Shown piece after piece: positions 1 through 15,807 of a stretch of 64,000 bases of DNA (positions are counted from its first letter, which is position 1; each line of letters opens with the position of its first letter). The notes below the pieces were generated by a model. It saw nothing but the letters and a program-made list of their open reading frames with translations, made no database searches and was not told where the DNA came from. The stretch covers positions 186,001 to 250,000 of the forward strand of contig JACDGL010000001.1 of NCBI GenBank assembly GCA_013815385.1. The letters are read 5' to 3'. The position numbers and the translations under genes were made by a program. The DNA comes from Taibaiella sp. GTDB taxonomy: Bacteria; Bacteroidota; Bacteroidia; Chitinophagales; Chitinophagaceae.

Positions 1-557
1 GCTGCCACACGCAGTTCGGGTATTTTACTATTAGTAAGCGGTAATATGGTAACATCTGATATGCGGATCTCCATTTGGGTCAACTCTACAATGCCTTGTA
101 TTTTTCTGTACCACCTACTGCTATCTATTTTATTAAATGAATCGTTTTGAAGATCCATATCAATGTAAAGCTTACGCAACAGCGCACCAAGATCACCGCC
201 AAAGTTTCTTTTGTATCCCAAAAGCGCCTTTATCAGCGCAGCCCTTACCCATGGCTTCTGAAATATAGGGCGGCCTATAGCTGCCGGGTCAAAAACTATT
301 GAATCAACAGGGTATTCATTTTGCAAACTTTCATTCAGCAACACCTGCTCTGTAATAAGATCATTAATAACAGGCGTTATATTTTTTAATCTTTTTTCAT
401 ACATATAGGAGTTATAGCGCCTGGTTAATATTACAATATAGGCTATGATAGTAGAACATACCGCTATCACAATAATGACTAAAGCAATCTGAATTACAAG
501 GGGGAGGTCCCAAAAATCAGTATAAAAGCTAATTATATGAAATCTTGATCGGATCAT
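1..557 (-). CDS. Membrane-anchored protein, N-terminal part (cut by window edge)
   Basis: An open frame runs from an ATG at 557 to the left edge without a stop, giving about 185 residues. The start MIRSRFHIISFYTDFWDLP is followed by one hydrophobic segment at about residues 21-45 (IQIALVIIVIAVCSTIIAYI). After it comes a soluble region with alternating helices (around WVRAALIKALLGYKRNFGGD, and a later IPELRVA segment) that suggests HEAT-like repeats. Bacteroidota have HEAT-repeat proteins with a single N-terminal anchor, but I cannot confirm the family from this fragment. The start lies 5 bp after the stop of the receiver-domain gene upstream on the same strand, so the two are probably co-transcribed. 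The gene was too open-ended to be called as a complete ORF. Confidence 0.7.
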   Translation of the reverse strand, partial: MIRSRFHIISFYTDFWDLPLVIQIALVIIVIAVCSTIIAYIVILTRRYNSYMYEKRLKNITPVINDLITEQVLLNESLQNEYPVDSIVFDPAAIGRPIFQKPWVRAALIKALLGYKRNFGGDLGALLRKLYIDMDLQNDSFNKIDSSRWYRKIQGIVELTQMEIRISDVTILPLTNSKIPELRVA

Positions 558-562
558 GAAAG

Positions 563-946
563 TTAGATTAAACTATTAGACTTGTCGTTAAGTATCTTTT
601 TTATGCGTATCAGCAATTCCGCAGGCATAATGGGTTTTTTCAGATAATCGTCTGCGCCTAATCTGAAAGCTTCCAATATCGAATCTTCGCTGCCAATGGA
701 GGAAACAACTATTAAGCCAACCTCGCCTCCACTATCGTGAGACTTTACATGGCTTATCACTTCCAGGCCATTTGTATAGGGCATCATCATATCTGTAATT
801 ACCAGTGCAAAATTACCCCTATCAAAAATCTCCATGCCCTCCTTTCCATTTCTTGCAGTAACCACCTTATACCCATTTTTATTAAGTATATTATTGATTG
901 CCTTCAACATTATATCATCATCTTCAATAATTAGAATGTCTTTCAT
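563..946 (-). CDS. Single-domain response regulator (CheY-like receiver)
   Basis: A 127-residue protein that is a receiver domain only. Acidic pocket IIEDDD at residues 6-11, phospho-acceptor Asp52 in VITDMMMP, conserved Ser in VVSSIGS (about 80-86) and the Lys-Pro pair LKKP at about 102-105. There is no output domain, so it should act through protein contacts, as a phosphorelay intermediate or by binding a partner. The next gene, 5 bp downstream, is a membrane protein with possible HEAT repeats, which is a reasonable partner but unproven. No kinase is adjacent. Family assignment is secure; the role is not. Confidence 0.93.
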   Translation of the reverse strand: MKDILIIEDDDIMLKAINNILNKNGYKVVTARNGKEGMEIFDRGNFALVITDMMMPYTNGLEVISHVKSHDSGGEVGLIVVSSIGSEDSILEAFRLGADDYLKKPIMPAELLIRIKKILNDKSNSLI

Positions 947-1447
947 AGGAAGATTAATTTAATAAATACTTATAATAAATTTAGATAAGTAGTATATGAA
1001 CTGTTTGTTGCCCTATAATTCCCTTTAGTAAAAATAGTAAAATAACTTACACTGGTCGTATTGCGGTGCGAATTTATCATTAATAAAATCCTTGAATGTG
1101 ATAAAATATATATTTTAAGTTTTGCCGACAATTTTACGTTAATTGGATTTTTTCCATTTTCAGGAACACGCTTCCACCTTTAAGACATAAGTTGTTGCTT
1201 TCATTAATCGTAAACACTTTCGAAAATTGTAATGAACCAATAAAAAGCAAAGCCACTAATACCGTGCGATAAGCCAGCACAGGCGAGCTATAGCCTGTTT
1301 TCAACTTCTGTGCTGAAGCAAGCGGTAATTTTAAAAGTGGTAATCCAATGCTTTCCATATTGATAAAGATGCAAAAACTTAGCCAATGCGGAATTTTAGT
1401 AAATTGGTATATTGAAATGATTAACTTTAACCTGTATATTTTTTCTT
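947..1447. other. Intergenic stretch without a convincing gene
   Basis: About 500 bp of AT-rich sequence. It should hold the promoter of the receiver gene to the left. An ORF at 1134-1358 on the minus strand (74 codons) has no recognisable family and an odd composition, so I do not call it. No clear terminator or repeat was seen here. Confidence 0.5.
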
Positions 1448-1579
1448 ATGTGGACATTCAAAGACTATAGGGACTATTACGAAGCTAACCCTTTGTGTTA
1501 TTTCTATATTATACTTATTATTATTATTTGCCTGGTGGGGGCTATATATTCCTACAGAAGAAGGAGAAGAAGAGCATAA
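1448..1579 (+). CDS. Small single-pass membrane protein with poly-Arg tail
   Basis: A 43-codon frame from ATG 1448 to TAA 1577-1579. It reads as a short soluble start (MWTFKDYRDYYEANPLCY), a strongly hydrophobic run (FYIILIIIICLVGAIY) and a C-terminus of six consecutive Arg residues then Ala. This is the layout of an N-out, C-in membrane miniprotein by the positive-inside rule. A strong hairpin with a T-rich flank follows 21 bp after the stop, as for a real transcription unit. I do not recognise a family. Coding status rests on composition and context only. Confidence 0.45.
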   Translation: MWTFKDYRDYYEANPLCYFYIILIIIICLVGAIYSYRRRRRRA

Positions 1580-1600
1580 CTCCTAATTCTACAAAAAATA

Positions 1601-1624
1601 AAGACCTGCACTTCTGCAGGTCTT
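1601..1624. terminator. Bidirectional intrinsic terminator
   Basis: Ten-base perfect arms (AAGACCTGCA and its complement) around a CTTC loop. It sits between the small plus-strand ORF ending at 1579 and the TonB-receptor gene ending at 1645 on the minus strand, with A/T-rich flanks on both sides, so it can serve both. Confidence 0.85.
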
Positions 1625-1644
1625 ATTCTACTTGAATAGTATAA

Positions 1645-3972
1645 TTAAAATTTATAGGTAGCACTCAGTTTTATAAAAAGCGGTGTGCCTGGTGTAAAAC
1701 AAAGATCAGTAACCGCCGGACTGTGCGACATAACTTCCTGCCTTAATCGTGTGTTGGTAGCAAAGGCAGCTTCATCCCATTGTACATTGAATATATTCTG
1801 TACCTGCAAACCGAATTCATACCTGGGCCTGCTATAGTTTGCCACTACGTCAAATATCGTATAAGCGGGTGCGACAATAGAATTATCCTGGTTTGCAGGC
1901 CGGTCGCCAATAGTACGTACACGAATGCTTGTCGAAAGGCTCTTATTTATTTTAAACGTAGCACCTGCTATTGAAGTGAAGCTGGCAGCCAGTGGCAGAT
2001 AGTTATTACCTGCTGAATCGTCTCTAGATCGGGCTTTTGTCAGGTTCATATCACCATCTATGTACAGCCATTTAAAGACTTCATAACGAATGGACAGATC
2101 AAATCCCTGGCGGCGAGTACGCGGCCCTGGGCTAACCGATGATTCATCGCCACTATAAGTAAACTCCGTTTGCAGGTTTAGCAGCCATACTGCGGCAGAA
2201 AGCAATAGCCTATCGTAAGGCTTTACAATAATACCGAGGTCATGAGAAAAAGCCAGAGGCAGTACATTATGTACCAGGTTTTGTCCAGGATATTGCAGCT
2301 GGTTCAAAGGATTAGAACCTATAGCTAATGTCCGCGTATCATTGGTATGAAAGCCAACACCATAATTATAATAGATACGTGCCTTATTGCTTACATTGTA
2401 ATAGACACCAACCTTAGGGCTGAACGCGCTGTTGTTAAATGTAACATCAGGAATGCTTGCGGGATCATTAGTCAGCTTATTATTGTATTGCTGTATAAAA
2501 TAATCAAAACGTGTACCTGCGGTCAGTACCAATTGTGGCAGTATATCTATTGTCTGGTTTATGTATCCATATATATTGGTTTCATGCACATCGCCTAATG
2601 CTATCGTTTTGAGTGTAATCTTGTCTACAGTGTGAGATAGCTCATCGTTCATTACATTATCATACCTGAAGCCAAGCCCCACCTGTGTTTTCATATGTAT
2701 GTCCTTTACAGAGTAGTTAGTACCATATTCACTATTGTACCCACCCATTATACGTTTCTCAGCCTGGCGTATCTGGTCGCCATTTATAGAATCTACTGCG
2801 AAGAATGTAAAATCAGAATACAATTTAAACTGGTAATAAGTCAGGTACATATTGCTTTTGAAATAGCTGTTATTGCCAATGGTCTGGAAATATTGCAGAT
2901 TGGCATTATAACGGCTGGTAGCACCGCCTTCACCATCTAAAGCACCAAACCTGCCTATATATCCTGAATCAATGGCGCGGGTAGGTATTTGCCCTGAGGC
3001 ATCCCAGCTGGTACTAAAGCCTGATAAAGTAAGACTCAATATTTTATTGCTTGCAAGGTAATTTGTATACTTACCCATAAGATTAAAACGCTGAAAATTT
3101 TGAGAACGATCAAAATAACTTCTGTTGTAACCGTATTCTCCCATTATATAAGCGTCCTGCTTATGGTTACCCTCGTCCCTGTTCAGCAGGTTCAGTCCTA
3201 CTACTGTCCTGAAGTATCCATAAGTGCCGCCATCTACCTTTACAAAGCTTTTATCAAGGGTATTTTTAGTTTTAAAGGCTACCCAACCCGCCGTAGCCAG
3301 GTTGCCCTTATCTATCTGGTAGGGCCCTTTGCCAAAATCAAGCAGCTGTACAGATTCGGGGATAATGAAGTGTGTATCGGCAAAGCCCTGGCCATGCGCA
3401 TGAGATACCATATTCACCGGCATGCCATCTACACTTACATTGACATCTGTGCCATGGTCTGCATCAAATCCGCGCAGAAACATTTGTTCTGCTTTTCCCC
3501 CACCCTGGTGTTCTGCTGTAAATAAGCCGGGCACCAGTCGCATAAGGTCCTGTGTTGAGTTAACAGGTCTCAGTTTTAGATCCAGGCCGCTGATGCTACT
3601 CAGTGTCAAATCTTTTTTTGCATTCACTGAAACCTCACTCAGTTTTACTTCAGAAGGCTCCAGGTTTATTGCCAGATCTGATGTGACACCGTCTTCTATT
3701 TTTATTGATTGTTCCAGAGTCTTATATCCTAACGTGCTTACATACAGGGTAACCTTTCCATCTTTCAGACCCTTCATAAAAAACTTACCAAAGGCATCGG
3801 TAACCGCGCTTAGGTTTTGTTCTTTAAGGTACACGCTTGCCCCTTCTATTGGTTTGTGGGTGGTGTTATCATATACATACCCTTTCAGGCTTCCGGTATG
3901 GGCCTGCGCCATTAAAGCAGTGCAAAGGCATATTATTATAGTAATTAAAAATTTGGTAATCGTTGATCGCAT
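1645..3972 (-). CDS. TonB-dependent outer membrane receptor with carboxypeptidase-like N-domain
   Basis: A 775-residue protein. Signal peptide at 1-24 (ending ALMAQA), a CarboxypepD_reg-like domain at about 27-108 (GSLKGYVYDNTTHKPIEGAS), a TonB plug domain at about 120-240, and a beta-barrel to the C-terminus, which ends in Phe (SATYKF) as outer membrane proteins do. The plug contains FDADHGTDVNVSVDGMPV and a His-rich HAHGQGFADTHF segment. It is the last gene of a minus-strand cluster with a HupE/UreJ-like permease and DUF4331 proteins, which suggests import of a metal or metal complex. The substrate is inference. A 254-bp gap upstream leaves room for its own promoter. Confidence 0.93.
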   Translation of the reverse strand: MRSTITKFLITIIICLCTALMAQAHTGSLKGYVYDNTTHKPIEGASVYLKEQNLSAVTDAFGKFFMKGLKDGKVTLYVSTLGYKTLEQSIKIEDGVTSDLAINLEPSEVKLSEVSVNAKKDLTLSSISGLDLKLRPVNSTQDLMRLVPGLFTAEHQGGGKAEQMFLRGFDADHGTDVNVSVDGMPVNMVSHAHGQGFADTHFIIPESVQLLDFGKGPYQIDKGNLATAGWVAFKTKNTLDKSFVKVDGGTYGYFRTVVGLNLLNRDEGNHKQDAYIMGEYGYNRSYFDRSQNFQRFNLMGKYTNYLASNKILSLTLSGFSTSWDASGQIPTRAIDSGYIGRFGALDGEGGATSRYNANLQYFQTIGNNSYFKSNMYLTYYQFKLYSDFTFFAVDSINGDQIRQAEKRIMGGYNSEYGTNYSVKDIHMKTQVGLGFRYDNVMNDELSHTVDKITLKTIALGDVHETNIYGYINQTIDILPQLVLTAGTRFDYFIQQYNNKLTNDPASIPDVTFNNSAFSPKVGVYYNVSNKARIYYNYGVGFHTNDTRTLAIGSNPLNQLQYPGQNLVHNVLPLAFSHDLGIIVKPYDRLLLSAAVWLLNLQTEFTYSGDESSVSPGPRTRRQGFDLSIRYEVFKWLYIDGDMNLTKARSRDDSAGNNYLPLAASFTSIAGATFKINKSLSTSIRVRTIGDRPANQDNSIVAPAYTIFDVVANYSRPRYEFGLQVQNIFNVQWDEAAFATNTRLRQEVMSHSPAVTDLCFTPGTPLFIKLSATYKF

Positions 3973-4226
3973 AAAACATTTATCTAAAAAACATAATACA
4001 ATTGTTGTAGTGATCCAATTTTATAAAAGAGCGATACTTGTAGCAGGAGATACAGCATACAAACAGCTATTCAATAGAATTATACAACGAAATGATCCAT
4101 TATTTCAAAAATGGAGCAAACCAGTTCTGAGCGAATCGAAGTATTCGGTAAAATAAATACTAGAGCATACCCCATTGCAACATAGCTTGTATGTAGAAAA
4201 GGTGCCATCTCAGAAAAGCTAATGTA

Positions 4227-4586
4227 CTATGCCTTTGGAGGACGATACTCCATATCCAGGTACGAGACCGGATAATAACAACTGTAAGAAGGGAAAATAT
4301 TGCCTAGTAAAGCGTGCTTAAAGCCTTTGAAGGTTATGAGAGCGGTTACTTCAAAATATTCTGCTATTTCAAGTTTATAGCTGCTGGAAGTTTTTCCTTT
4401 CTCCGATTGATGCGAGGCCTGCACCAGTTCCTGGTGAACGTGAAACTTCCCATGTACTTCGTGAACAGTCAATATATGTTTGCTTTCCCAAAAGGTATGC
4501 GCTACGGCATCAGCAATAAGAGGCATAACTGGCTTCAACATTGTGATAGTATAAGAAAACAGTATCAGGTAGGTTAGTTTCCTCAT
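4227..4586 (-). CDS. Small His-containing membrane/periplasmic protein
   Basis: 119 residues from the ATG at 4586 (MRKLTYLILFSYTITMLKPV). An upstream in-frame ATG at 4673 exists, but its extra 29 residues look non-coding. A hydrophobic N-terminus (about 1-22) is followed by a His-rich stretch (AHTFWESKHILTVHEVHGKF, then HVHQELVQASHQ). As far as I recall, small proteins of this shape occur next to TonB receptors and metal-handling genes in Bacteroidota; I do not know a named family. It lies between the HupE-like permease gene and the receptor gene, so a metal-binding accessory role is plausible but inferred. Confidence 0.7.
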   Translation of the reverse strand: MRKLTYLILFSYTITMLKPVMPLIADAVAHTFWESKHILTVHEVHGKFHVHQELVQASHQSEKGKTSSSYKLEIAEYFEVTALITFKGFKHALLGNIFPSYSCYYPVSYLDMEYRPPKA

Positions 4587-4782
4587 TATGCTCTCCTTCC
4601 ATTCATTTCCATGCTTCGCTCCTTCCCTTATGGAATGTGGCTTCGAATATTTTATGGAAATTTTTGAATACATGCCTGATATTATATCAACCTTGATATT
4701 GGATATACGGGTAATTTAACAATTCAGATTTTATCTATACTGATAGAGCATAAAAGAATCGTTCCCATATTTTGATAAGGTA

Positions 4783-5451
4783 TTACTTGGTAAAGAATAT
4801 CCGCTCTATAGTCCAGTAGCTGGCTATTAATGCTATCACCAGCGAGGATGGAATAACGATGCGTTTCCTGTACCAGGTTTTATTGGAAAACGACTTAGCA
4901 ACTACCCAGTACATAAAAAGAATAATTGTCAATTGTCCTAATTCCACACCCACATTAAAGCTGACCAAAGCTGCTGCGAAGGCATACTCTGGCATACCTA
5001 ATTGCGAAAGCGCACCGGCAAACCCCATACCGTGTACCATACCAAAAAGGAAAACCATGGCCATTCGCCATGGTTTCACCTTATTGGAAAATACATTTTC
5101 AAGCGCTAAGAATACTATAGATAAAGCAATTAAAGGCTCCACCACAGCAGTGGGTGGATGTATGACGCCATACATTGCCAAACCCAGCGTAATAGAATGT
5201 GCCAATGTGAACATAGATGCCTGTAAAACTATATTCCTGATATTGGTATTCAGGAAGAAGACGCAGAGTATAAAAAGTATATGGTCAAATCCATAAGGTA
5301 TAATGTGTGTGAAACCAAGACACACATATTTCCATACTACAGAACTGTTATCTATCTTATCCAACTGGTAATTGATGGTGTGCGCATGTACGTGGGTACA
5401 GTACAAACAATAAAACAGTATGAACGCCAGTATAGGCAGTAGCTTCTTCAC
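4783..5451 (-). CDS. HupE/UreJ-family membrane protein
   Basis: 222 residues. An N-terminal signal-like helix ends in a His-rich HVHAHTINYQ segment. About six membrane helices follow, with the family's hallmark His and acidic residues inside helices: HIIPYGFDHILFIL, FTLAHSITLGLAM, VEPLIALSIVFLALENVF, FGMVHGMGFAGAL and FNVGVELGQL. HupE/UreJ proteins are nickel or cobalt permeases, or accessory proteins of nickel enzymes. No hydrogenase or urease gene is present, so the metal here is open. The gene is 21 bp downstream of the TPR lipoprotein gene. Confidence 0.88.
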   Translation of the reverse strand: MKKLLPILAFILFYCLYCTHVHAHTINYQLDKIDNSSVVWKYVCLGFTHIIPYGFDHILFILCVFFLNTNIRNIVLQASMFTLAHSITLGLAMYGVIHPPTAVVEPLIALSIVFLALENVFSNKVKPWRMAMVFLFGMVHGMGFAGALSQLGMPEYAFAAALVSFNVGVELGQLTIILFMYWVVAKSFSNKTWYRKRIVIPSSLVIALIASYWTIERIFFTK

Positions 5452-5472
5452 TTACTATGTTTTATTTGGGTA

Positions 5473-6819
5473 TCAGCGCTGCACTACCGCTCTTTGTTTT
5501 GATTCATTAATGATCAGTTGATCAATATATGGATTAATAGATTGTGCTTCTGCAATAAGCTGGTTACCTTTTACAGTATCGCCTGCACTTATATATATAA
5601 CACCTGCTTTATACAAGCTATTTGCATTCTTCGTATTTGTTTTTAGCATTTTGTCAGCATGCATTTTGGCATTTGTATAATCACCTTTGCGATAATATAT
5701 CCAGGCTGCCAGTTCATTTGCATCTATATTATCAGGACGCATATTAAGGTCTTTCTGGTCATACTCCAGTGCCTTGGCAATATTATTATCATTAAGATAA
5801 GCCATTGCTAATTCGCGATTAGCATTGTGTTTCACCAGCACATCCTTCTGGTCTTTCTCTCCATCTTCCATTAGTCTTATTACATCGCTTCTCACTTCTT
5901 TAGCTTTACCAGTATCGCCTTTCAGCTCATACAGATCTCCCAGATAAGTAACAAAAGCAGCCTCGCTTTGTAATTTTATTGCAGCCTTGGTATGCTCTAT
6001 TGCTTCATCGTAGTTTTTACGTGCACGTGCCACTTTTGCCATACCCAGTTCTGCAACGGGGTAATTAGGCCTGTAAACCAGTGCAGTACGATAAGTAATG
6101 TTGGCACTATCCAGATTACCGATATTCAGATATAGGTCGCCAAGTGTTACCCGCGCCCATTCGGTACTTTCAGCACCGGGCAAGCCCGATTCTACAGCCA
6201 TCTTCATCGCATCAATAGCACCGCGGTTATCGCCGTATATCTGCCTCAGATAGGAAGCCCGTGAATAGGAACGTAAATCAGGACGAATGTTTATCATTTT
6301 ATCGCAGTCTTTTACAGCCGTGTCGTAATGGCCCAACTCTACATTCGCATCAACCAGAGCACCGTAGATACCTGAATTAAAATCGCTTATTGCCCTGCCT
6401 TTTTCAGCTACATCCAGGGCATCTTTAAACTGGTGCATATTTAATAGCACCGTAGACTTGAGACTATAAGCCTGAAATAATAAATCATCGCTTTTGTTCT
6501 GTCCGTTAATGACCCTATCCAGCACATTTACTGCGGCATTACCATAATAAGTATTATTGCCTGTTATTCTTCCCTCCAGTATATATACTGTACCCAGCGT
6601 TATATACTGCTTCATGTCATCCGGATTTTCTTTTAGTGCCAGTACAGCCTTCTGGTAAGTAGCATTTATATTATCCGTTTCTTCTTTGGGAGCAATGCTC
6701 GCTTTAGACTCCAATAACGGAGGTATTGAATCTTTTTTTTCTGAACAGGATATAAGGCTTATACAAATAAGCATTATAATAAGATGCAATCGAGTTGTGG
6801 AAGTTCTCATATTCTTCAT
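5473..6819 (-). CDS. TPR-repeat lipoprotein
   Basis: 448 residues. An N-terminal hydrophobic segment ends in a lipobox (LISC, Cys at about 25), so it is probably a lipoprotein. The rest is built of TPR-like helical pairs (for example NYPVAELGMAKVARARKNYD and ANSLYKAGVIYISAGDTVKG), at least eight. TPR proteins act as protein-binding scaffolds. It lies in the middle of the DUF4331/HupE/TonB cluster, 63 bp after the first DUF4331 gene, with a strong hairpin in that gap. A scaffold in the periplasm or on a membrane linking the exported DUF4331 proteins to the transport proteins is a reasonable guess. Confidence 0.85.
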   Translation of the reverse strand: MKNMRTSTTRLHLIIMLICISLISCSEKKDSIPPLLESKASIAPKEETDNINATYQKAVLALKENPDDMKQYITLGTVYILEGRITGNNTYYGNAAVNVLDRVINGQNKSDDLLFQAYSLKSTVLLNMHQFKDALDVAEKGRAISDFNSGIYGALVDANVELGHYDTAVKDCDKMINIRPDLRSYSRASYLRQIYGDNRGAIDAMKMAVESGLPGAESTEWARVTLGDLYLNIGNLDSANITYRTALVYRPNYPVAELGMAKVARARKNYDEAIEHTKAAIKLQSEAAFVTYLGDLYELKGDTGKAKEVRSDVIRLMEDGEKDQKDVLVKHNANRELAMAYLNDNNIAKALEYDQKDLNMRPDNIDANELAAWIYYRKGDYTNAKMHADKMLKTNTKNANSLYKAGVIYISAGDTVKGNQLIAEAQSINPYIDQLIINESKQRAVVQR

Positions 6820-6831
6820 TTACTATCAAAG

Positions 6832-6862
6832 ATAAGGAGGGCATATTAATAGCCCTCCTTAT
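6832..6862. terminator. Strong hairpin inside the DUF4331-TPR operon
   Basis: Perfect 11-bp arms (ATAAGGAGGGC and its complement) around a 9-nt loop, located between the stop of the DUF4331 gene (6883) and the start of the TPR gene (6819). On the minus strand it is not followed by a clean T run, so it may be an attenuator or an mRNA-stabilising 3' end rather than a full terminator. Confidence 0.65.
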
Positions 6863-6882
6863 TATTTAAATTATAAAAATTA

Positions 6883-8901
6883 TTAATTAGCCTTAACCAA
6901 CTTCACTGTATTAAAAGGTACATTGTTAGCTGATATGCGTGCGAAATAATTACCTGCTGGAAGATTAGAACCATTCCATTTTGCAGTGTAATCACCAGCG
7001 CTTTGGCTACCCTGGTTGATCGTTTGTACAGTACGTCCGTTAACATCCAGTATTGCAATAACTACATTTGCGCCATCATTAAGTTTGTAGCGGAATGTGA
7101 TCTGCGAAGTGAATGGATTAGGATATGCACTCATCACGGCTGCAGGGGTCTGAAGATTTAACTGATTAACAGCTACCGGTGTGCTTACATAATTTGTACC
7201 GTTAAAACCTCTCCATGGTGCCTGCAAATAAGGGAAGCAAGCTTTAAATGTAGTGTCATTATGAGTAACACCAGCATTAAAGGTCAGCACACTATCCAGC
7301 CTTGGAGTAACAGGGCTGCCAGTGCCTGGGTAATCATCATACCACAATCCTATAGCTGCTAGAGCTATACCAGATACTGCCTGAAGTTCTATAGTGGTTA
7401 CATCATCTTCTAGACGACGACCATTAGGGAACCCGTCCATATTTGGTATAAATTGCAAAGTAGTAGTAGTGTTGAATCTTGCATCTGTAAGGCCTAAAAC
7501 TGCAGCCTGCACAATGCCCAGTGAACTGAAATCTGCACTAGCCCTTGGTGTAACCGGTACCGCCATGTTCAAACGGAGCATATCACACAGAGTTGGCAGA
7601 AAGTTATTGATAAATGGCTTGCCTGCAGCTAATGGATTGTTCGCAGGTTTTCCTGTTGCTAACTGATACGGAGCCAGGTTAGGTACCCCTGTATAAAATA
7701 TAGGGAGTATATCTACAGAACGTGGGCTGTGATTATCAGGCAACAATATATTACCATACGTAGCCGGATCGAATGCTGTACCAACAAGCCCTGGAGAACC
7801 CTTTAAGGAATATAGACCAACCTTAGTATTGCGGAAGTCAAAACTACCTAATGAATTAGTCTGTATCCTTAATTTTGAAAGGCCGGGTACAGCACCACCG
7901 AATGCTGAAGCATCCATGTATAGGGCCAACTCCGGATTTTCGAAATAGGGTACATAAGAAGCATCACCAGTATAGGGGTTTGTGCTATTCCATTGATCTT
8001 TCATACCAATCGGTATTATTACTTCATTGGTAAGCGGCATACCTAAACGGGATACTTGAACATAGCTACTGGAGAAAGTAGCTCCTCCTGTTGTATTAAG
8101 TGTAGTAATAGTGGGTCTGCTGGCAGAAGCCCAAACCCCAATCACAAAATTAGGATCCAGAATGCTGGTTGCAGAAGTAACACTAAGACCAGTTTTCTGC
8201 AACGAGGAAATAGGTATTTCGAGCACTATGCTGTGACAGTTATATTTAGCCAAACCATCACGGCCTGGATTACGGAAACCACCTACATCAAAAGCTCCGC
8301 CAAGATCTACAAAGAATGGATCATCAGAAGGGCCGCAGAAAAGCTTTTCACCAGTGCTGGCCGTAGCTATTGCTGCATTGATCAGTGCATCATAAGATGC
8401 AGCATGAAGACCTGCAGCACCTTCTATTGATTTGGGGCCAATATTATTTGGAGGTACAATACCATTACTATATATAATAGCAAATGTAGTACCGCCATCG
8501 GTGCTTTTTTCGCAAGTGTATGTTGCTTTAATGTTTTGCTTGCCAAGGCGAATATTAAAGAATGTGCTGGTATCCTCATTTACACGTGTAAAAGTGAAGC
8601 GATAAGTGATATCATCACCTGAGGTTGTAGTCTTATTCTTTATATGTATCTCGTATCGCACATTTTCACCAAACTGGTAATAGTTCGGACCTCCCGCGGG
8701 AGATTCAAAAGGTATATAATTGGCTATAATAACGATTTTATTTGTATCGCAAGGACTGCGGAACGCATAAACATCTGTATTATCAGCTACCGGGTCGTTC
8801 GAAATGAGTGGGGCCTCCCTGTGTGAAGACGCCATCACATTTACCTGTGGCAAAAAGGATATCATTAATGCCACAACTACTTTATTTAGAATTTTTTTCA
8901 T
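6883..8901 (-). CDS. DUF4331 exported protein with T9SS sorting domain
   Basis: 672 residues. Signal peptide ending at MASSHREA; mature start SSHREAPLISNDPVADNTDV is the family signature of DUF4331, whose function is unknown. The DUF4331 region covers about 25-560. The last roughly 85 residues form a T9SS type A sorting domain: YPNPFTSQITFRY, ILDVNGRTVQTI, LPAGNYFARIS. The protein should therefore be secreted through T9SS and displayed or released at the surface. It is the second of two tandem DUF4331 genes, 27 bp after the first. Residue-level similarity between the two is high over the DUF4331 part. Confidence 0.93.
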   Translation of the reverse strand: MKKILNKVVVALMISFLPQVNVMASSHREAPLISNDPVADNTDVYAFRSPCDTNKIVIIANYIPFESPAGGPNYYQFGENVRYEIHIKNKTTTSGDDITYRFTFTRVNEDTSTFFNIRLGKQNIKATYTCEKSTDGGTTFAIIYSNGIVPPNNIGPKSIEGAAGLHAASYDALINAAIATASTGEKLFCGPSDDPFFVDLGGAFDVGGFRNPGRDGLAKYNCHSIVLEIPISSLQKTGLSVTSATSILDPNFVIGVWASASRPTITTLNTTGGATFSSSYVQVSRLGMPLTNEVIIPIGMKDQWNSTNPYTGDASYVPYFENPELALYMDASAFGGAVPGLSKLRIQTNSLGSFDFRNTKVGLYSLKGSPGLVGTAFDPATYGNILLPDNHSPRSVDILPIFYTGVPNLAPYQLATGKPANNPLAAGKPFINNFLPTLCDMLRLNMAVPVTPRASADFSSLGIVQAAVLGLTDARFNTTTTLQFIPNMDGFPNGRRLEDDVTTIELQAVSGIALAAIGLWYDDYPGTGSPVTPRLDSVLTFNAGVTHNDTTFKACFPYLQAPWRGFNGTNYVSTPVAVNQLNLQTPAAVMSAYPNPFTSQITFRYKLNDGANVVIAILDVNGRTVQTINQGSQSAGDYTAKWNGSNLPAGNYFARISANNVPFNTVKLVKAN

Positions 8902-8928
8902 GACTGTATTTTTTGTTTTACAGATTAA

Positions 8929-10692
8929 TTAGAATCGTGGCTTCATTACATAATCATATCCTCTCCATGGCGCCTGTAAATACGGGAAAGAGGCATTGAA
9001 AGTTGTGTCATTGTGAGTAATACCTGCTGTAAAGCCTAATGTGCTCAACAATTGAGGCGTTACCGGTGAGGTAGATGTACCTGGAACATAATCATCATAC
9101 CAAAGCCCTATGGCAGCAAGTACTACGCCTGATACTGCTTGTAGTTCTATGGTAGTTACATCATCTTCTAATCGACGACCATTAGGGAAACCATCCATAT
9201 TAGGGATATTCTGCAAAGAAGTATCGCCATTATAAGTAGTATTGGTAAGTCCCAGAACAGCTGCTTTAAGCAGACCTAAAGAACTGAAATTTGGATCTGT
9301 TCTAGGTGTTGGCGGTACAGCCATATTAAGGCGCAGCATATCACCTACTGTTGGTAAGTAGTTATTGATGAATGGCTTGCCATGGGCTAAGGGATTGCCT
9401 GCAAGTTTATGAGTAGCAAGCTGGTAAGGTGCAAGATTTGGCACCCCAGTATAAAATATAGGCAATATATCTACTGCACGCGGACTTGTGCTATCCGGAA
9501 GCAAGATCGTACCTGCAATTGCATCATCCAGAGCAGTACCAGAAACCGCTGCTGATCCCTTAAGTGCATACAAGCCTTTATGGCCATTACGGAAATCATA
9601 AGCACCTAATGAATGGCTTTGTATACGCAATGCATTAAGCGCCGGTACAGCACTGGCGAATTTTGATGCATCCATATACAATGCTAGCTCTGGATTTTTT
9701 AAATAGTATACATAATCTACGTCACTTATGTAAGGGCTTAATGCGTTCCAACGATCCTTTTTACCTACGGGTATGATGGCTTCATTCGTAAGGGGCATGC
9801 CGATACGTGAAACCTGCTGCCATGAACCTGAATAGGCTACTGTACCCCCAGTATTTAAAGTTTTTATAGATTGTCTGCTTGCTGACGCCCAAACTCCTAT
9901 TACAAAATCTTTATCAAGGATGTTGGCTGCCGAAGATACACTTAGTCCACTTTTCTGAAGCATATTAATTGGTATCTTCAAAGAGATGGTGTGTACATTA
10001 TAGCCTGATAATGCATCTTTTGTAGAATTGGTTGTGTTACCTTCTGGCCTGAAATTGCCAAGGTCAAATGCACCTGCCAGATCTACAAAAAATGGATCAT
10101 CTACTGGTCCGCAAAACATTTTTTCGCCTGTGCTTGCAGTACTTATTGCAGACGTCATTAATGCAGGATAAGTAGTACCTAGCCCTACTGTACTATTTTC
10201 AATAGAACGCGGACCTATGTTTGCAGGAGGTACAATTCCATTTGTAAAGATTGTGGTGAACGATGCACCACCATCTGTACTCTTTTCACAGGTATAGGTA
10301 AGCTTCAGGTTTTGTTTACCCAACCGGATATTGAAAAAAGTAGTAGGGTCCTGATTTACTGACGCAAAAGTAAAACGATAAGTTATATCGTCACCGGTAG
10401 TAGATGTTTTGTTCTTTATGTGTATCTCATAACGCACATTAGTACCAAAACCATAATAATTGGGGCCACCCTCCGCTAATTCAAATGGAATATAATTAGC
10501 GATGATCGTAATAGTTGTCGGATCATCGGGGCTTCTGAAGGCATACAGGTCAGTGTTATCTGCCTGGGGATCGGATGAGATAAGTGGAGCTTCCCTGTGG
10601 CTGGAGGCGAAACTGGCCATCGACATCGTCATCAATCCCAAAAAGATGCATCTACTGCGCACCTTTTTAAATAATGATAAACTTTTCTTCAT
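8929..10692 (-). CDS. DUF4331 exported protein without sorting domain
   Basis: 587 residues. Signal peptide ending at about residue 29 (MASFA), then SSHREAPLISSDPQADNTDL, the DUF4331 signature. It aligns along its whole length with the neighbouring DUF4331 protein but stops at WRGYDYVMKPRF, exactly where the neighbour begins its linker and T9SS sorting domain. It is thus predicted to stay periplasmic while its paralogue goes to the surface. It is the first gene of the minus-strand cluster; its upstream region contains an imperfect palindrome at 10721-10736. Function is unknown. Confidence 0.93.
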   Translation of the reverse strand: MKKSLSLFKKVRSRCIFLGLMTMSMASFASSHREAPLISSDPQADNTDLYAFRSPDDPTTITIIANYIPFELAEGGPNYYGFGTNVRYEIHIKNKTSTTGDDITYRFTFASVNQDPTTFFNIRLGKQNLKLTYTCEKSTDGGASFTTIFTNGIVPPANIGPRSIENSTVGLGTTYPALMTSAISTASTGEKMFCGPVDDPFFVDLAGAFDLGNFRPEGNTTNSTKDALSGYNVHTISLKIPINMLQKSGLSVSSAANILDKDFVIGVWASASRQSIKTLNTGGTVAYSGSWQQVSRIGMPLTNEAIIPVGKKDRWNALSPYISDVDYVYYLKNPELALYMDASKFASAVPALNALRIQSHSLGAYDFRNGHKGLYALKGSAAVSGTALDDAIAGTILLPDSTSPRAVDILPIFYTGVPNLAPYQLATHKLAGNPLAHGKPFINNYLPTVGDMLRLNMAVPPTPRTDPNFSSLGLLKAAVLGLTNTTYNGDTSLQNIPNMDGFPNGRRLEDDVTTIELQAVSGVVLAAIGLWYDDYVPGTSTSPVTPQLLSTLGFTAGITHNDTTFNASFPYLQAPWRGYDYVMKPRF

Positions 10693-10720
10693 GGAATTGT
10701 TGTTTTAATTGTTCTTTAAT

Positions 10721-10736
10721 GTGAGTATTTACGCAC
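10721..10736. promoter_or_regulatory. Imperfect palindrome upstream of the DUF4331 operon
   Basis: GTGAGTATTTACGCAC: seven-base arms with one mismatch around a two-base centre, starting 29 bp upstream of the start codon of the first DUF4331 gene. The position suits an operator, but there is no proof of binding. Confidence 0.3.
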
Positions 10737-10845
10737 TAACAGTACGTTTAGATTTGATTCTCTATATTTTAATAAAAACCATACCAATCGACTTTTACCC
10801 CATTAGTTTATTTTTTTTCCCCTTTTAGACCATAAACCTGCATTT

Positions 10846-10869
10846 TATACGGAGTAACTATCCCGTATA
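10846..10869. promoter_or_regulatory. Inverted repeat upstream of the PAS kinase gene
   Basis: Perfect seven-base arms, TATACGG and CCGTATA, separated by 10 bp. It lies in the divergent region between the DUF4331 operon and the PAS histidine kinase gene. A similar pair (TATACG and CGTATA) is found at 15333-15354 upstream of the LuxR-type two-component operon, so it could be a shared regulator site. Confidence 0.35.
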
Positions 10870-10960
10870 CCTTCCCCAATTCAATCATATACCTTTTAGT
10901 AAAACCATATTCAATACATTGACGTATATTGGACTTCGATAAGTAATTAACTGTAATCCA

Positions 10961-12856
10961 TTGAAACCAGCATTGAATATAAAGAGGTCGAAATATCTTT
11001 TATTAGTGGGTATTTGCCTCCTATTCATCAGTGTATTAGTCTTAATAGGCTGGCAATTCAATATTCCTACCCTCTATAGCCTATTGCCAGGTATTACACC
11101 TATGAACCCAATGACAGCTATGTGCTTTATATTTTCAAGCATTTGGGTATATACGTATTACTCTGAAAATCAAGAAATTAGGAAAATACTACCCGGAATA
11201 GCTTTAGCAGTAACGCTCTTTGGTTTAATACACTTCGTTACCTACATCTACCCTATCCCAGCCATTCGCCTTGATTATTTTTTATATAAGGAGAAAATAA
11301 TAAGAAACCATGCCCCCAGCCTTGTCGCTCCTAATACGGCATTGGGTTTTATGCTTTGCGGCATCACCATGTTATTATCCCCAAGCAGCGATAAACGAGC
11401 CCAGATAACAAAACAGGTAATATTGATTCTATCATTTTTATTATCCTATATGTCCGTTGTAGGGTACATATTTAACGTACAACCGGCCTACAGGATGGGA
11501 GGTTTTACACCAATGGCGCTTATTACTTCCGTATCATTTATTATACTCACTATAGGAATAATGTTTACCGACACCCGCTATGCGTTTGCGCGCTTACTCT
11601 CGTCCCCTCTTAGTGGCGGGCGTATGATAAGGGCCGTCATACCTTTTCTTCTTATTTTCCCTCCTATTATGGGGTACCTGCGCTTGTTAGGTGAACGTAA
11701 AGGCCTTTATCCATCTGAATTTGGTGTTGAGTTGAATACCCTTCTATTCATATTGGTTATATTGTCCTTTGTTAGTATCTACGCTGCACTTCTCAATAAA
11801 AAACAGCTATTAACAATACGATCCAATAATACCCTGGAGGTAAATGAAAAAAAATTCAGGACCCTTATATATGCATTAAATGAAGGAATAGTGAATCTGG
11901 ATATATACGGTAGCATACGGTTCTGCAACCCTGCATTTTGCAGCATAACTGGTTTTGATGAAAGAGAACTGACAGGTGGTAATATAATAGATATGTTGGT
12001 ACCCAATACCGGAAAGGAAGATTTTATTGAACGCCTGAAAAATGAAAATAAAAACGAAGAAAGTTATCGTATAGAAATAGTCAGAAAAGCTGGACAACTG
12101 GTTTGGCTGGATGTGAAAATACGTCAGTTACTTGATATAGATAATACTGCGCAAGGTGTGCTATTATCTATAAATGATGTAACCGAAGACGTTCTTAAAA
12201 TTGAGGATCTGAAAGCATTTACCTCATCAGCAGCCCACGATCTAAATGCACCAATGTCGCGTATTATTGCCCTTACCGAGCTAATAGATAATGGCAACCT
12301 GGATGAAGAACAAAAAGAACTATTAGGGATCATAACAGATACTGCCCGCAACATGAGTACAATGCTTCGGGATCTGTTGCAATTTTCAAAATTGGGTGCA
12401 GCACAATTAGATAAAACATTGATAGATGTAGATACATTAGTGGAGGAAATATGCAGTGCCTATAAAACAAATGGCAACTGTAAAATTAATGTACACGCTC
12501 TACCCCCGGCAAATGGGGATATCGGCGCAATAAAGCAGGTTTATACAAATCTTGTTTCCAATGCGGTAAAGTACTCTTCTCATAATGCACATCCAATAGT
12601 AGAAATAGGTGCAGATACAATCGGCAAAAGAGTATTCTATTATTTTAAAGATAATGGCGTAGGATTAAAAGAGGAGCAGCTAAAAACATTATTTACACCT
12701 TTTAAACGTTTTCATCAGCAATTTGAAGGCAATGGATTAGGACTGGCAATGGTAAAAAGGATCGTTGAAAAACATGGTGGCACTATCTACGCAAAACCTA
12801 ATAACGACGCAGGTCTCACTTTTTACTTTACACTAACACCAGAGCTAAACAACTAA
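10961..12856 (+). CDS. Membrane PAS-domain sensor histidine kinase
   Basis: 631 residues from a TTG start; a TAA lies in frame at 10940 and no ATG precedes the first membrane helix, so TTG is the most likely start. About seven to eight membrane helices (to about residue 275), a PAS domain at about 300-415, a HisKA domain with His426 in SSAAHDLNAPMSR, and a HATPase domain with N-box VYTNLVSNAVKYSS, FKDNGVGL and GNGLGLAMV. It is a complete, probably active kinase with no receiver of its own. The LuxR-type regulator that converges on it starts its stop codon at the next base (12857), so the genes meet with no spacer. Whether they are partners is unknown. Confidence 0.92.
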   Translation: MKPALNIKRSKYLLLVGICLLFISVLVLIGWQFNIPTLYSLLPGITPMNPMTAMCFIFSSIWVYTYYSENQEIRKILPGIALAVTLFGLIHFVTYIYPIPAIRLDYFLYKEKIIRNHAPSLVAPNTALGFMLCGITMLLSPSSDKRAQITKQVILILSFLLSYMSVVGYIFNVQPAYRMGGFTPMALITSVSFIILTIGIMFTDTRYAFARLLSSPLSGGRMIRAVIPFLLIFPPIMGYLRLLGERKGLYPSEFGVELNTLLFILVILSFVSIYAALLNKKQLLTIRSNNTLEVNEKKFRTLIYALNEGIVNLDIYGSIRFCNPAFCSITGFDERELTGGNIIDMLVPNTGKEDFIERLKNENKNEESYRIEIVRKAGQLVWLDVKIRQLLDIDNTAQGVLLSINDVTEDVLKIEDLKAFTSSAAHDLNAPMSRIIALTELIDNGNLDEEQKELLGIITDTARNMSTMLRDLLQFSKLGAAQLDKTLIDVDTLVEEICSAYKTNGNCKINVHALPPANGDIGAIKQVYTNLVSNAVKYSSHNAHPIVEIGADTIGKRVFYYFKDNGVGLKEEQLKTLFTPFKRFHQQFEGNGLGLAMVKRIVEKHGGTIYAKPNNDAGLTFYFTLTPELNN

Positions 12857-13543
12857 TTATTCCGGGTTATATAAACCTAACTTAATAGCAGTAATTACTA
12901 CCCCAACCGAGTTTTTTGCTTTTAGTTTATCGAGTATTTTAAGTCTTACACCTTCCATAGTACGTATCCCGGTAAAAAGTTTTTCGCCTATTTCCTTCGT
13001 GGTATACCCCTCGCATATCAGTTGAATTACTTGTAATTCGCGGGCATCCAACTCGGGTACTATTTTTATATTCTGCTTGCTCTTCTTGTTGTTTGCTATC
13101 ATCCTTGCCAGCTTCACCGATGTATGCTTACAGTAATACTCCTCATTAGCATTTACTGCATGTACTGCATCTATAAGTTCTGCCTTGTCTGAGTTTTTTA
13201 AAAGATAACCACTCCCGCCGGCATCTATCATGTCCATTATCAATTGCTCCTCTTCAAACATAGAAAGAGCCAACACACCTATCCCGGCAAATCGCCTTGT
13301 TATTTCTCTCGTAGCCTCAATACCGTCCATATTGGGCATTTTTATATCGGTAATTACTACATCTGGTCTTACCTTATCAACTATAGCTAATAACGCTACG
13401 CCATCTGCCGCCTCACCCACAAGCATAATATTCTCTGCTTTCTTAAGCATCAGTCTCAAGTCATCCCTGAATATTTCATGATCGTCAGCTATCACTACTT
13501 TTATAATATTATGCTCAGCAGCTTCTTTTGTATTGTCTTGCAT
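12857..13543 (-). CDS. LuxR/NarL-family response regulator
   Basis: 228 residues. N-terminal receiver domain with ADDHEIFRDDL, phospho-acceptor Asp66 in VVITDIKMP and Lys in YLLKNSDK. C-terminal LuxR-type helix-turn-helix at about 165-225: LDARELQVIQLICEGYTTKE, then IGEKLFTGIRTMEGVRLKI. It is a DNA-binding regulator, encoded 6 bp after its probable kinase (13550-14302) as the last gene of a four-gene operon. Confidence 0.96.
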   Translation of the reverse strand: MQDNTKEAAEHNIIKVVIADDHEIFRDDLRLMLKKAENIMLVGEAADGVALLAIVDKVRPDVVITDIKMPNMDGIEATREITRRFAGIGVLALSMFEEEQLIMDMIDAGGSGYLLKNSDKAELIDAVHAVNANEEYYCKHTSVKLARMIANNKKSKQNIKIVPELDARELQVIQLICEGYTTKEIGEKLFTGIRTMEGVRLKILDKLKAKNSVGVVITAIKLGLYNPE

Positions 13544-13549
13544 GCATCT

Positions 13550-14302
13550 CTATTTTACCGGTATTTCAAAAACAAACTTCGTTCCTTTACCGTTTTCAGC
13601 GTTCAATGAAAATTTTGCATTCAGCACTTCTGCCCTGCTTTGTAAATTGTATAATCCCAGTCCGGAGTTTTTGGTCGAGTTTTCGTTAAAATCAAATCCT
13701 ATACCATTATCAGCGGTTACAAGATAAAGTGTAGACTGATGACGTCGAAACTGGATGGATAAAAATGTAGCCTTTGAATGCTTTATAGTATTGTGTATGA
13801 TCTCCTGGAGTATCCGATATAGGTTTATTTCCTCCTCCTTTGTCAATATAGTATCGCCAATACTATTATCGAAATTAATCTTCAGGCCGTTGGTTTCGCC
13901 AAGTTTATCTATGTACTCTTCTACTGCCTTTACCAGGCCATGCCTTACTAATATAGCGGGCAAAAGGTTGTAGGAGATCTCCCTCAGTTTATTCACCATA
14001 TTATCTATATGCCTGTTCGATATCTCCATCAATTCTTTATCCTCATCGCTTTTGCACTCCAGGTGGTTAATATGGAGTTTAATGGAGGATATAACAGGCC
14101 CAAGCTCATCATGCATATCTGATGCTATTCTTTTGCGCTCTTTTTCCTGCGTATCTATTTCCGCCTTTATACGCGCTTTATATAGCGCCACATTTCTTTT
14201 ATGGTGCTTTATCATTGTTATTATAAAATAAGCAATAATAAGCCCTAACACCACAGCAGTTACTGCCACTGCGGTATAAAATTTGTCTTCCGGGGAATAC
14301 AT
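13550..14302 (-). CDS. DesK/NarX-type sensor histidine kinase
   Basis: 250 residues. One membrane helix near the N-terminus (AVAVTAVVLGLIIAYFIITM), a HisKA_3 domain with the phospho-acceptor His in IASDMHDELGPVISS, then a HATPase domain (ILQEIIHNTIKHS, ADNGIGFDF, GLGLYNLQSR). It has almost no extracytoplasmic domain, so the signal may come through the membrane protein encoded just upstream or from inside the membrane. It pairs with the LuxR-type regulator 6 bp downstream. In the restored reading of the upstream gene, the two genes overlap by 43 bp. Confidence 0.95.
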   Translation of the reverse strand: MYSPEDKFYTAVAVTAVVLGLIIAYFIITMIKHHKRNVALYKARIKAEIDTQEKERKRIASDMHDELGPVISSIKLHINHLECKSDEDKELMEISNRHIDNMVNKLREISYNLLPAILVRHGLVKAVEEYIDKLGETNGLKINFDNSIGDTILTKEEEINLYRILQEIIHNTIKHSKATFLSIQFRRHQSTLYLVTADNGIGFDFNENSTKNSGLGLYNLQSRAEVLNAKFSLNAENGKGTKFVFEIPVK

Positions 14303-14315
14303 AAGATTGCTATGG

Positions 14316-14939
14316 CTAATAAAAGATTGAAAAATACATTGAGGTAGGTTTCGATGCTGAATATATGTTGTCTGATGGTATTGTCTGGAGCGAAATCATA
14401 GAATATTTCAACCATAATTCTATAGGAGAAAAAAATATCACATCAATACAAATTAAAAAAATTGGGTTCTTTAAAATCTCATTTCTATCGTTAATTATTA
14501 TCCAGTTTAGTTGATTAACAGCTAATAATACTAATGCAACACAGTAACTAACACAAAATATGGGGCTATACATATTTATACGCCCCATAAAAATGTTTTC
14601 AATTACCCATACTATTAACAGGGAAATGGTTAATGCATAAAAGAGGTTTTTGTTTTTTAGAATATTTCCCCAGTTTTTAAATTGCCAGCAAAACAATAAA
14701 TATTCTACAATTAGATAAATATTATTGGGAACGGCATTGTTATTTAATGGATAGCATATCAGTTCATTAACAAGTCCGGCTAATAATAAAAGTATTAATG
14801 GACGATAAATCCGCACAATTTCCTTGTACTTATATAATCCAACCCCAAGCGGAGCCAGAATACTTAGGCTCATATAGAAGGCGGTTCTACTATCCATTTT
14901 CCATATTGTATTTATGGATGTCTCTGTCCTGTTTCGCAT
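14316..14939 (-). CDS. Multi-pass membrane protein with a probable frameshift
   Basis: The open frame codes 207 residues with about six membrane helices (LILLLLAGLVNELICYPL, NIYLIVEYLLFCWQFKNW, ALTISLLIVWVIENIFM, SPIFCVSYCVALVLLAV). The last 45 residues after VIFFSP look non-coding. Shifting by one base at the run of seven T (14429-14435 on the plus strand, as A) restores a sensible tail: YRIMVEIFYDFAPDNTIRQH, then IFSIETYLNVFFNLLLAIAI, ending at 14260 inside the kinase gene. So one T is missing, by mutation, phase variation or sequencing error. The better start is the ATG at 14897 (MDSRTAFYM), 14 bp after the preceding gene. Possible signal input for the downstream kinase. Confidence 0.75.
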   Translation of the reverse strand: MRNRTETSINTIWKMDSRTAFYMSLSILAPLGVGLYKYKEIVRIYRPLILLLLAGLVNELICYPLNNNAVPNNIYLIVEYLLFCWQFKNWGNILKNKNLFYALTISLLIVWVIENIFMGRINMYSPIFCVSYCVALVLLAVNQLNWIIINDRNEILKNPIFLICIDVIFFSPIELWLKYSMISLQTIPSDNIYSASKPTSMYFSIFY

Positions 14940-15256
14940 ACCTGCGTTAAACTACAGGCGCCATTTAGCATTATAATATCTTGTCCCGTAGCATCCGTTG
15001 CCAGGAATATGCTCCTCATATGGTTGCTGGTATCCATGCCTGTATATATTCTGAAGCCAGATGCACCACCTTGGTTAATGACCGACTGCACGGCTGAAAG
15101 GTTAAATGATTCGTAATCCATTAATACTGCGGGGTCGCCTGCCATGCCACCACCAAGCAGGTTCTGCTGCTGGCTGTTATAGGCATCTATCATAGCTTTG
15201 GCATCCTGCCACGATATTGTATGATCCTTTGAATTTAAACTATCTGCGTAAGACAT
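14912..15256 (-). CDS. Conserved small protein of unknown function
   Basis: 114 residues, soluble, no signal peptide. It begins MSYADSLNSKDHTISWQDAK, has a Gly/Met-rich turn (NLLGGGMAG) and a middle part SGFRIYTGMDTSNHM, with two Cys near the C-terminus (GACSLTQVCETGQRHP). As I recall, proteins of this outline occur in Chitinophagaceae next to membrane protein-kinase-regulator operons like this one, but I know no name or function. It is the first gene of the four-gene operon. Confidence 0.75.
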   Translation of the reverse strand: MSYADSLNSKDHTISWQDAKAMIDAYNSQQQNLLGGGMAGDPAVLMDYESFNLSAVQSVINQGGASGFRIYTGMDTSNHMRSIFLATDATGQDIIMLNGACSLTQVCETGQRHP

Positions 15257-15332
15257 AATTTGGGGTTTTTAATATTGATGACTATTTATCAGCCACAAAA
15301 GTATAACTCTGCTTCAGGGATGCAATAGTAGC

Positions 15333-15376
15333 TATACGTTTTATACTGCGTATAACTACGTAAAATTTACAGTAGT
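15333..15376. promoter_or_regulatory. Two inverted repeats in the divergent promoter region
   Basis: First repeat: TATACG and CGTATA, 10 bp apart (15333-15354). Second repeat: ACTACGTAAA facing TTTACAGTAGT (15355-15376), nearly perfect with a one-base bulge. They sit between the start of the minus operon (15256) and the plus gene (15477). Likely regulator sites; the operon's own LuxR-type regulator is a candidate. Confidence 0.4.
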
Positions 15377-15476
15377 AATACGCATACAGAATCAGTACCC
15401 TTACTCTTTTAGTGATCTGTGGGCAGACTTACTTTTGTTTTTAATTATTTGATATTAAAAAGCAATTCCCAGGTTT

Positions 15477-15797
15477 ATGCATCCCACATCAATAAGTACC
15501 GAAAAAAAATTGTTACAGGTGTATCGCGATATAGCCGGAGATGTAATAGAAAACTATTCTGCTTCTATACCAGATGAGGTACTGAGCACTACGCACAGTG
15601 ACAGTACAGAGCAGCAAAAAAAACTCCACACCATACTACGTGAAATTGATGCAGAACTTAAAGACAAAGCAGATAATATAATGGCGGCTATTCATTTCGA
15701 TCGCAACTCCGATATATTAAAACTAAAGGAGCAGCTATTTATTATCCGTAAAGATTACTTTAATGATTTTATGAAGAAAGCAGTATTGTGCTACTAG
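15477..15797 (+). CDS. Small helical protein of unknown function
   Basis: 106 residues, charged, predicted almost wholly helical (for example QQKKLHTILREIDAELKDKA), with no signal peptide or membrane helix. No family recognised. It is transcribed divergently from the two-component operon and converges with the exported protein gene at 15808, with only 10 bp between stops. Confidence 0.6.
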   Translation: MHPTSISTEKKLLQVYRDIAGDVIENYSASIPDEVLSTTHSDSTEQQKKLHTILREIDAELKDKADNIMAAIHFDRNSDILKLKEQLFIIRKDYFNDFMKKAVLCY

Positions 15798-15807
15798 TAT
15801 ATCCGAA

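Follow-up and report, generated by a model that had tools for sequence, protein, structure and literature searches.

In the 64,000-nucleotide stretch of the Taibaiella sp. genome analysed here (assembly GCA_013815385.1, contig JACDGL010000001.1; hereafter the window), six genes lie in a row on the minus strand, from 10692 to 1645, and encode two exported proteins of the family DUF4331, a TPR lipoprotein, a HupE/UreJ-2 permease, a small His-rich membrane protein and a TonB-dependent receptor (TBDR). On balance, the sequences point to an exported module for the capture and uptake of a transition metal, with nickel as the leading candidate and copper or cobalt as possible alternatives, a reading that we consider slightly better than evenly probable. 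Metal uptake through a TonB receptor and a His-headed permease is the known side of such a system; the new element would be DUF4331 at its centre, with a predicted X-X-His head.

Families were called at the Pfam gathering cut-offs, with NCBIfam searched as well, and both the same-strand row and the family names of the original prediction, which had been made from the sequence alone, stood up to this analysis (DUF4331 twice, TPR, HupE_UreJ_2 and TonB-dependent receptor, all above the cut-offs). The first gene encodes DUF4331 protein A (8929..10692; 587 aa), with a signal peptide and no sorting tail, and the second DUF4331 protein B (6883..8901; 672 aa), with a signal peptide and a C-terminal sorting domain of the type IX secretion system (T9SS); they match PF14224 with 424 and 410 bits against a cut-off of 27, over positions 1–421 of 421. 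The TPR lipoprotein follows (5473..6819; 448 aa; TPR families of Pfam and a LISC lipobox), then the permease (4783..5451; 222 aa, GTG start), the small protein (4227..4586; 119 aa from its likely start, with homologues in the same slot elsewhere) and the receptor (1645..3972; 775 aa; PF07715, PF00593 and PF13715, the plug, barrel and CarboxypepD_reg-like domains).

That these genes form one pathway had been proposed from their arrangement, and the proposal would have lost ground if DUF4331 genes rarely kept company with HupE-like and TonB genes elsewhere. Such company is not rare, because the genes form one conserved set in one order. A pattern search over 84,980 species returned at least 592 matches, of which 589 were confirmed relatives, giving 78 distinct named loci; among the matches listed, 52 named loci had at least 5.5 kb of downstream sequence and were used for counting. 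A TPR gene was present at 50 of these, a receptor gene at 45 and a HupE gene at 21, with order and strand almost always the same. The architectures among them were DUF-DUF-TPR-TBDR (25 loci), DUF-DUF-TPR-HupE-TBDR (13) and a form with both HupE and a small gene (3). The order DUF4331-(DUF4331)-TPR-(HupE)-(small)-TBDR recurs far above chance, and we rejected a chance neighbourhood given that the same order is almost always kept across the listed named loci while the flanking genes differ between genera. The named loci are skewed to close relatives of the query, and a sample of 296 Bacteroidota genomes, 38 of which encode DUF4331, is a fairer measure, although it also includes some closely related genomes. 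Of these 38 neighbourhoods, 36 have a TPR gene next to DUF4331, 20 have a homologue of the receptor and 8 have HupE; an extracytoplasmic function (ECF) sigma factor is found in 14 and an RskA-type anti-sigma factor in 13. The conserved, ordered set therefore bears out the single pathway in part, but the nearly invariant core is only DUF4331 followed by TPR, and the six-gene form is the fullest version of the set, not the rule.

The key prediction concerns the N-terminus of DUF4331. In protein A, codons 10597..10605 (minus strand) encode Ser30-Ser31-His32, the predicted start of the mature protein, and the block A29-S30-S31-H32-R33-E34-A35-P36 is fully invariant in an alignment of 14 sequences from three phyla; the corresponding Ser-Ser-His codons of protein B lie at 8821..8829 on the same strand (VMA|SSHREAP). 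The residue preceding SSHREAP is Ala in 137 of 141 DUF4331 proteins and Gly or Ser in the rest, and the -3 position admits only small or aliphatic residues (A, S, T, G, V, L, I or M), so that the -3/-1 rule is satisfied in 141 of 141. The signal-peptidase cut is predicted to fall directly before Ser-Ser-His, leaving an X-X-His head. A free NH2-X-X-His N-terminus is the amino-terminal copper/nickel (ATCUN) motif, as defined in a quotation in PMC12509749, and with its predicted mature Ser-Ser-His, DUF4331 would resemble the ATCUN proteins and peptides of PMC7701195 and PMC12509749; no conserved exported family built on the motif was found in the literature searched. A divergent flavobacterial half-protein reads A|ADHxD[AT]P, with His still in third place and its neighbours changed.

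In Flavobacteriaceae-type genomes (loci L050–L068), DUF4331 is split into two adjacent genes, for an exported N-terminal half and a C-terminal lipoprotein half. The split looks like it lies at a domain border of DUF4331; in an AlphaFold2 (AF2) model, strands give way to helices near residue 297, with modest confidence. Beyond the head, G501-P503-N504-G505-R506-R507...D510-D511 is also conserved in three phyla. No solved relative of DUF4331 was found by sequence, and a fold search gave no significant match (best E 0.12), a null that says little because the model is weak (mean predicted local distance difference test, pLDDT, 68). We found no mention of DUF4331 or PF14224 in the literature, though subscription journals may hold one. 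Protein B is predicted to reach the cell surface because of its C-terminal type IX sorting domain (residues 593–660, 6922..7125, minus strand; PF18962 and TIGR04183, the latter with 39.6 bits against a cut-off of 23), a domain that protein A lacks. This signal, the X-X-His motif and the occurrence of DUF4331 in other phyla go beyond the original prediction. At one locus (L036, 9188–11704), a C-type lectin domain (PF00059) lies between DUF4331 and the T9SS tail, and at two others (L039, 2334–3053; L041, 8084–8551), Bac_globin genes (PF01152) with a signal-peptide-like start lie upstream of DUF4331.

Through its subfamily, the receptor may tie the set to nickel genes. Its His-rich plug, noted at the outset, proved to be conserved: the stretch QHQGGGKAEQMFLRGFDADHGTD...SHAHGQG (3385..3510, minus strand) contains H155, H173 and H193, which do not vary among 29 aligned receptors of two phyla, ten of them proteobacterial, and the motifs QH.G.GKA.Q, DHG[TS]D and H.H[GA]QG are shared throughout. 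The proteobacterial relatives were obtained by tblastn, and in 12 annotated contexts taken from the top of the hit list, nikR was present in 5, hoxN-type genes in 4 and either or both in 8; these receptors keep the same three plug His residues. Among these contexts are hydrogenase regions on pHG1 (C. necator) and pHCG3 (Afipia; hyp cluster) and a hoxN/cobW/cobN region of Novosphingobium. By alignment, the window receptor belongs to the same subfamily, but identity is 26–31%, the Bacteroidota receptor adds an N-terminal CarboxypepD_reg-like domain starting with His, and its neighbours are DUF4331, TPR, HupE and regulators, with neither nikR nor a nickel enzyme beside it. The codon of that His, His25, is at 3898..3900 (minus strand) and would specify the first residue of the mature receptor (AQA|HTGS); of the 49 receptors in the set, 39 are predicted to begin with His. 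The window's genome holds no second full-length relative of this receptor, and among solved receptors, profile comparison places PqqU/YncD, a cofactor transporter, closest to it, ahead of siderophore receptors, CntO and BtuB.

The permease matches PF13795 with 154 bits against a cut-off of 24.5, and its AF2 model (pLDDT 87) has seven helices after the signal peptide. The codon of His24, the predicted first residue of the mature protein (VHA|HTIN), lies at 5380..5382 on the minus strand; this His is invariant in 25 aligned sequences, a His follows the predicted cut in all 26 sequences of the set, and His likewise comes directly after the predicted cut wherever the start of a NicO or HupE permease from another phylum was inspected. 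About 10 residues separate His1 from the first modelled helix in the window permease. No solved relative was found by sequence, and the fold search with this model returned no significant match (best E 0.26). Similarity to HupE/UreJ proteins of the PF04955 kind is also detectable (40 bits against a cut-off of 23), with an H...DH motif near the first helices, but PF13795 is the best match, the spacing is H-x6-DH and the genome has no detected hydrogenase.

A closer parallel is offered by the anglerases (Ang-1 or Ang-2 with HupE/UreJ-2; PMC12537917, Nat Commun 2025), in which domains with an N-terminal His are fused to HupE/UreJ-2 and were shown to bind both Cu and Ni, Ang-1 with 74 nM for Cu and 220 nM for Ni. 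What is shared is a PF13795 permease with a His just after the signal peptide, and the permeases of proteobacterial DUF4331 operons carry about 180 additional residues at the N-terminus, a region that starts with His, as Ang-1 does. The window permease differs in having neither an Ang domain nor a separate N-terminal metal-binding domain, and for lack of the Ang domain, we rejected its classification as an anglerase. It is joined instead by DUF4331, TPR, the small His-rich protein and the TonB receptor, none of which is named in the passages of PMC12537917 consulted; neither the word TPR nor DUF4331 is present in its text. The paper also describes DUF6702 and DUF4198 as N-terminal-His metal binders, and DUF6702 proteins precede HupE at two loci of our comparison.

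Outside Bacteroidota, loci were found through plasmid searches, and 14 were inspected. The set DUF4331-TPR-permease is complete in 11 of them, from Gamma-, Beta- and Alphaproteobacteria and Actinomycetota. The permease slot is filled by HupE_2 in Marinobacter, Pseudoalteromonas, Comamonadaceae, Variovorax, Paraburkholderia and Lichenicola, and by a NicO nickel permease in Streptomyces, Streptomycetaceae, Embleya and Nonomuraea; this exchange of two nickel-permease families within one slot points to the cargo more clearly than any other single observation. Miltoncostaea has just DUF4331 and TPR, whereas in Paracoccus and Sulfitobacter, DUF4331 is accompanied by neither TPR nor permease. The Pseudoalteromonas operon also has ECF sigma and anti-sigma genes, and a class F sortase gene is added at two actinomycete loci. 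On a Streptomyces plasmid (L173, 1–13263), the DUF4331 operon lies near a sortase, a molybdopterin oxidoreductase, a fasciclin protein and a DUF4394 protein, and there it may be part of a wider regulon.

Two observations make a transition metal the likely cargo: in Proteobacteria, the receptor subfamily is found beside nikR, hoxN and hydrogenase genes, and the permease slot is held by HupE_2 or NicO; the same receptor contexts and permease families favour nickel. The metal cargo suggested in the original prediction is therefore upheld as likely.

Several observations weigh against a nickel uptake module. Urease, [NiFe]-hydrogenase, LarA and CobN were not detected in the window's genome, and across the 296 Bacteroidota genomes, nickel enzymes occur in 7 of the 38 with DUF4331 and in 82 of the 258 others. 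By phylogenetic profile, urease is weakly enriched with DUF4331 (4/38 vs 6/258) and hydrogenase is depleted (3/38 vs 77/258), which probably reflects the carriage of hydrogenase by anaerobes; with these counts, the profile lends nickel no support. By the published values, Ang-1 holds Cu more tightly than Ni. The count of 8 in 12 for nikR or hoxN stands without a control group of other receptors, and at an identity of only about 28% with the nickel-linked receptors, the window receptor may have a different cargo. An adjacent permease is absent from most Bacteroidota loci, and the ECF sigma and RskA-type neighbours would equally suit a stress response. The cut that exposes the DUF4331 head is deduced from the -3/-1 pattern, and an alternative cut, ASS|H, would put His at residue 1 and likewise create a metal site, but the restriction at -3 would then be unexplained, which makes this cut the less favoured one.

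Copper is favoured by the preference of the related domains for Cu and by a genome without detectable urease, hydrogenase, LarA or CobN, and weakly so by cytochrome oxidase genes just upstream at three loci. At these loci (L070, L073 and L080), a conserved seven-gene block lies upstream of the DUF4331 operon, and its last gene resembles that of cytochrome c oxidase subunit I. Given a metal role, we would put nickel at about an even chance, copper clearly lower and cobalt or another metal lowest.

In the proposed uptake module, DUF4331 would be exported, protein B via the type IX system to the surface, and would gather metal outside the cell or in the periplasm, with the trimmed Ser-Ser-His serving as a square-planar Cu/Ni (ATCUN) head. 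The receptor, with its N-terminal His and His-lined plug, would then carry the metal or a metal complex across the outer membrane and the His-headed permease would carry it across the inner membrane, while the small His-rich protein and the TPR lipoprotein may act as carrier and assembly partner. A bolder and tentative proposal, which we think somewhat unlikely to be right, is that DUF4331 represents an unrecognised class of exported metal collectors, whose Ser-Ser-His head (Ala-Asp-His in Flavobacteriaceae) hands metal on to receptors and permeases that themselves begin with His; an N-terminal metal-binding residue would thus be displayed at successive steps across the envelope. Such collectors would be kept at the cell surface through the type IX system or in the form of a lipoprotein-linked pair; in Actinomycetota, a sortase, encoded next to them, would perhaps hold them there.

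DUF4331 has so far been a family without a function, encoded in hundreds of sequenced species (at least 589 confirmed relatives), and the TPR partner, the two nickel-type permease families in three phyla and the nikR-linked receptor subfamily together give it a first testable one. The uptake module, if real, would supplement the recently described His-headed permeases with an arm at the outer membrane and cell surface, and would reveal a way in which aerobic Bacteroidota may gather a scarce metal.

Among other explanations, the one that survives best, though we regard it as unlikely, is that DUF4331 is an exported metalloenzyme, for example in redox or peroxide defence, with its metal at X-X-His; the receptor and permease would supply or recover the metal, TPR would assemble the protein and the whole would be a stress-defence unit. 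The conservation of DUF4331 over its full length exceeds the needs of a simple metal sponge, and the ECF sigma and RskA-type genes in Bacteroidota and in Pseudoalteromonas, together with the exported globin genes upstream at two loci, would fit such a role. However, DUF4331 resembles no enzyme by sequence, nor by fold in its low-confidence model, and the separately anchored halves of Flavobacteriaceae argue against, without excluding, a single shared active site.

A shade less likely still is protection from excess metal, in which DUF4331 and the His-rich proteins would sequester metal at the surface, and the permease would store or export it under ECF control. The RskA-type anti-sigma pairs nearby are compatible with this, as are the lack of the usual nickel sinks in the genome and the strong response of a Sphingobium HupE/UreJ-like gene, the one most induced by nickel excess (PMC5557971). 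Against this, TonB receptors import, the proteobacterial receptor relatives sit with nikR, hoxN and hydrogenase genes, which are on the uptake side, and no efflux pump of the resistance–nodulation–division, P-type ATPase or cation diffusion facilitator type occurs in the conserved set.

That the system takes up an organic nutrient, with DUF4331 as a SusD-like surface binder of a peptide, glycan or cofactor and the His residues incidental, is very improbable: glycan import is common among Bacteroidota TonB receptors that have a CarboxypepD_reg-like domain, the nearest solved receptor by profile transports a cofactor and one DUF4331 protein has a lectin domain, but the set contains no SusD-like or glycan-degrading gene, nickel-type permeases hold the inner-membrane slot in three phyla and the invariant plug His residues are common to the nikR-linked receptors. 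The SusCD systems of Bacteroidota do share a TonB receptor with an N-terminal carboxypeptidase-like domain and exported partners, and they differ from the present set, which has a metal-type inner-membrane permease; none of the six proteins matched a SusD-like family in Pfam, and we rejected a SusCD-like glycan system for want of both SusD and enzymes.

The small protein, from an open reading frame at 4227–4673, has no match in Pfam or NCBIfam. Its gene more likely begins at 4586 than at 4673, behind a strong Shine-Dalgarno-like aaggag. Seven homologues occupy the same place at other loci and one more lies between TPR and the receptor; H30, H37, H42 and H49 are invariant in nine aligned sequences. 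Other small His or His/Cys membrane proteins in the slot before the receptor (L040, 13467–13853; L091, 15579–15974; L102, 15509–15904) look unrelated between genera, and their ends are often PPR or PPK.

In gene order, the gaps within the row are 27, 63, 21, about 196 (with the small gene starting at 4586) and 253 bp. A hairpin with a 10-pair stem followed by TATTTTTT lies past the receptor stop (1601..1624, minus strand) and is the sole terminator-like hairpin within an intergenic stretch. Gap sizes and hairpin placement fit a single transcript, despite a sigma-70-like match at 4108–4079 in the 253-bp gap; the overall number of sigma-70-like and terminator-like sites is at chance level. No match to the Bacteroidota promoter consensus was found in the window, and no Rfam riboswitch or other element in its positions 1–16000. 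By Pfam, the divergent plus-strand gene at 10961 encodes a histidine kinase with a PAS domain, and a LuxR-type regulator and a kinase are encoded by the minus-strand genes that come next; none of these recurs consistently at other loci. Farther along the window, a 1033-aa TMEM260-like predicted O-mannosyltransferase is encoded at 16863–19964, and a plus-strand gene cluster encodes two radical SAM proteins with a B12-binding domain (42082–43581 and 44379–45842), the second match being below the cut-off.

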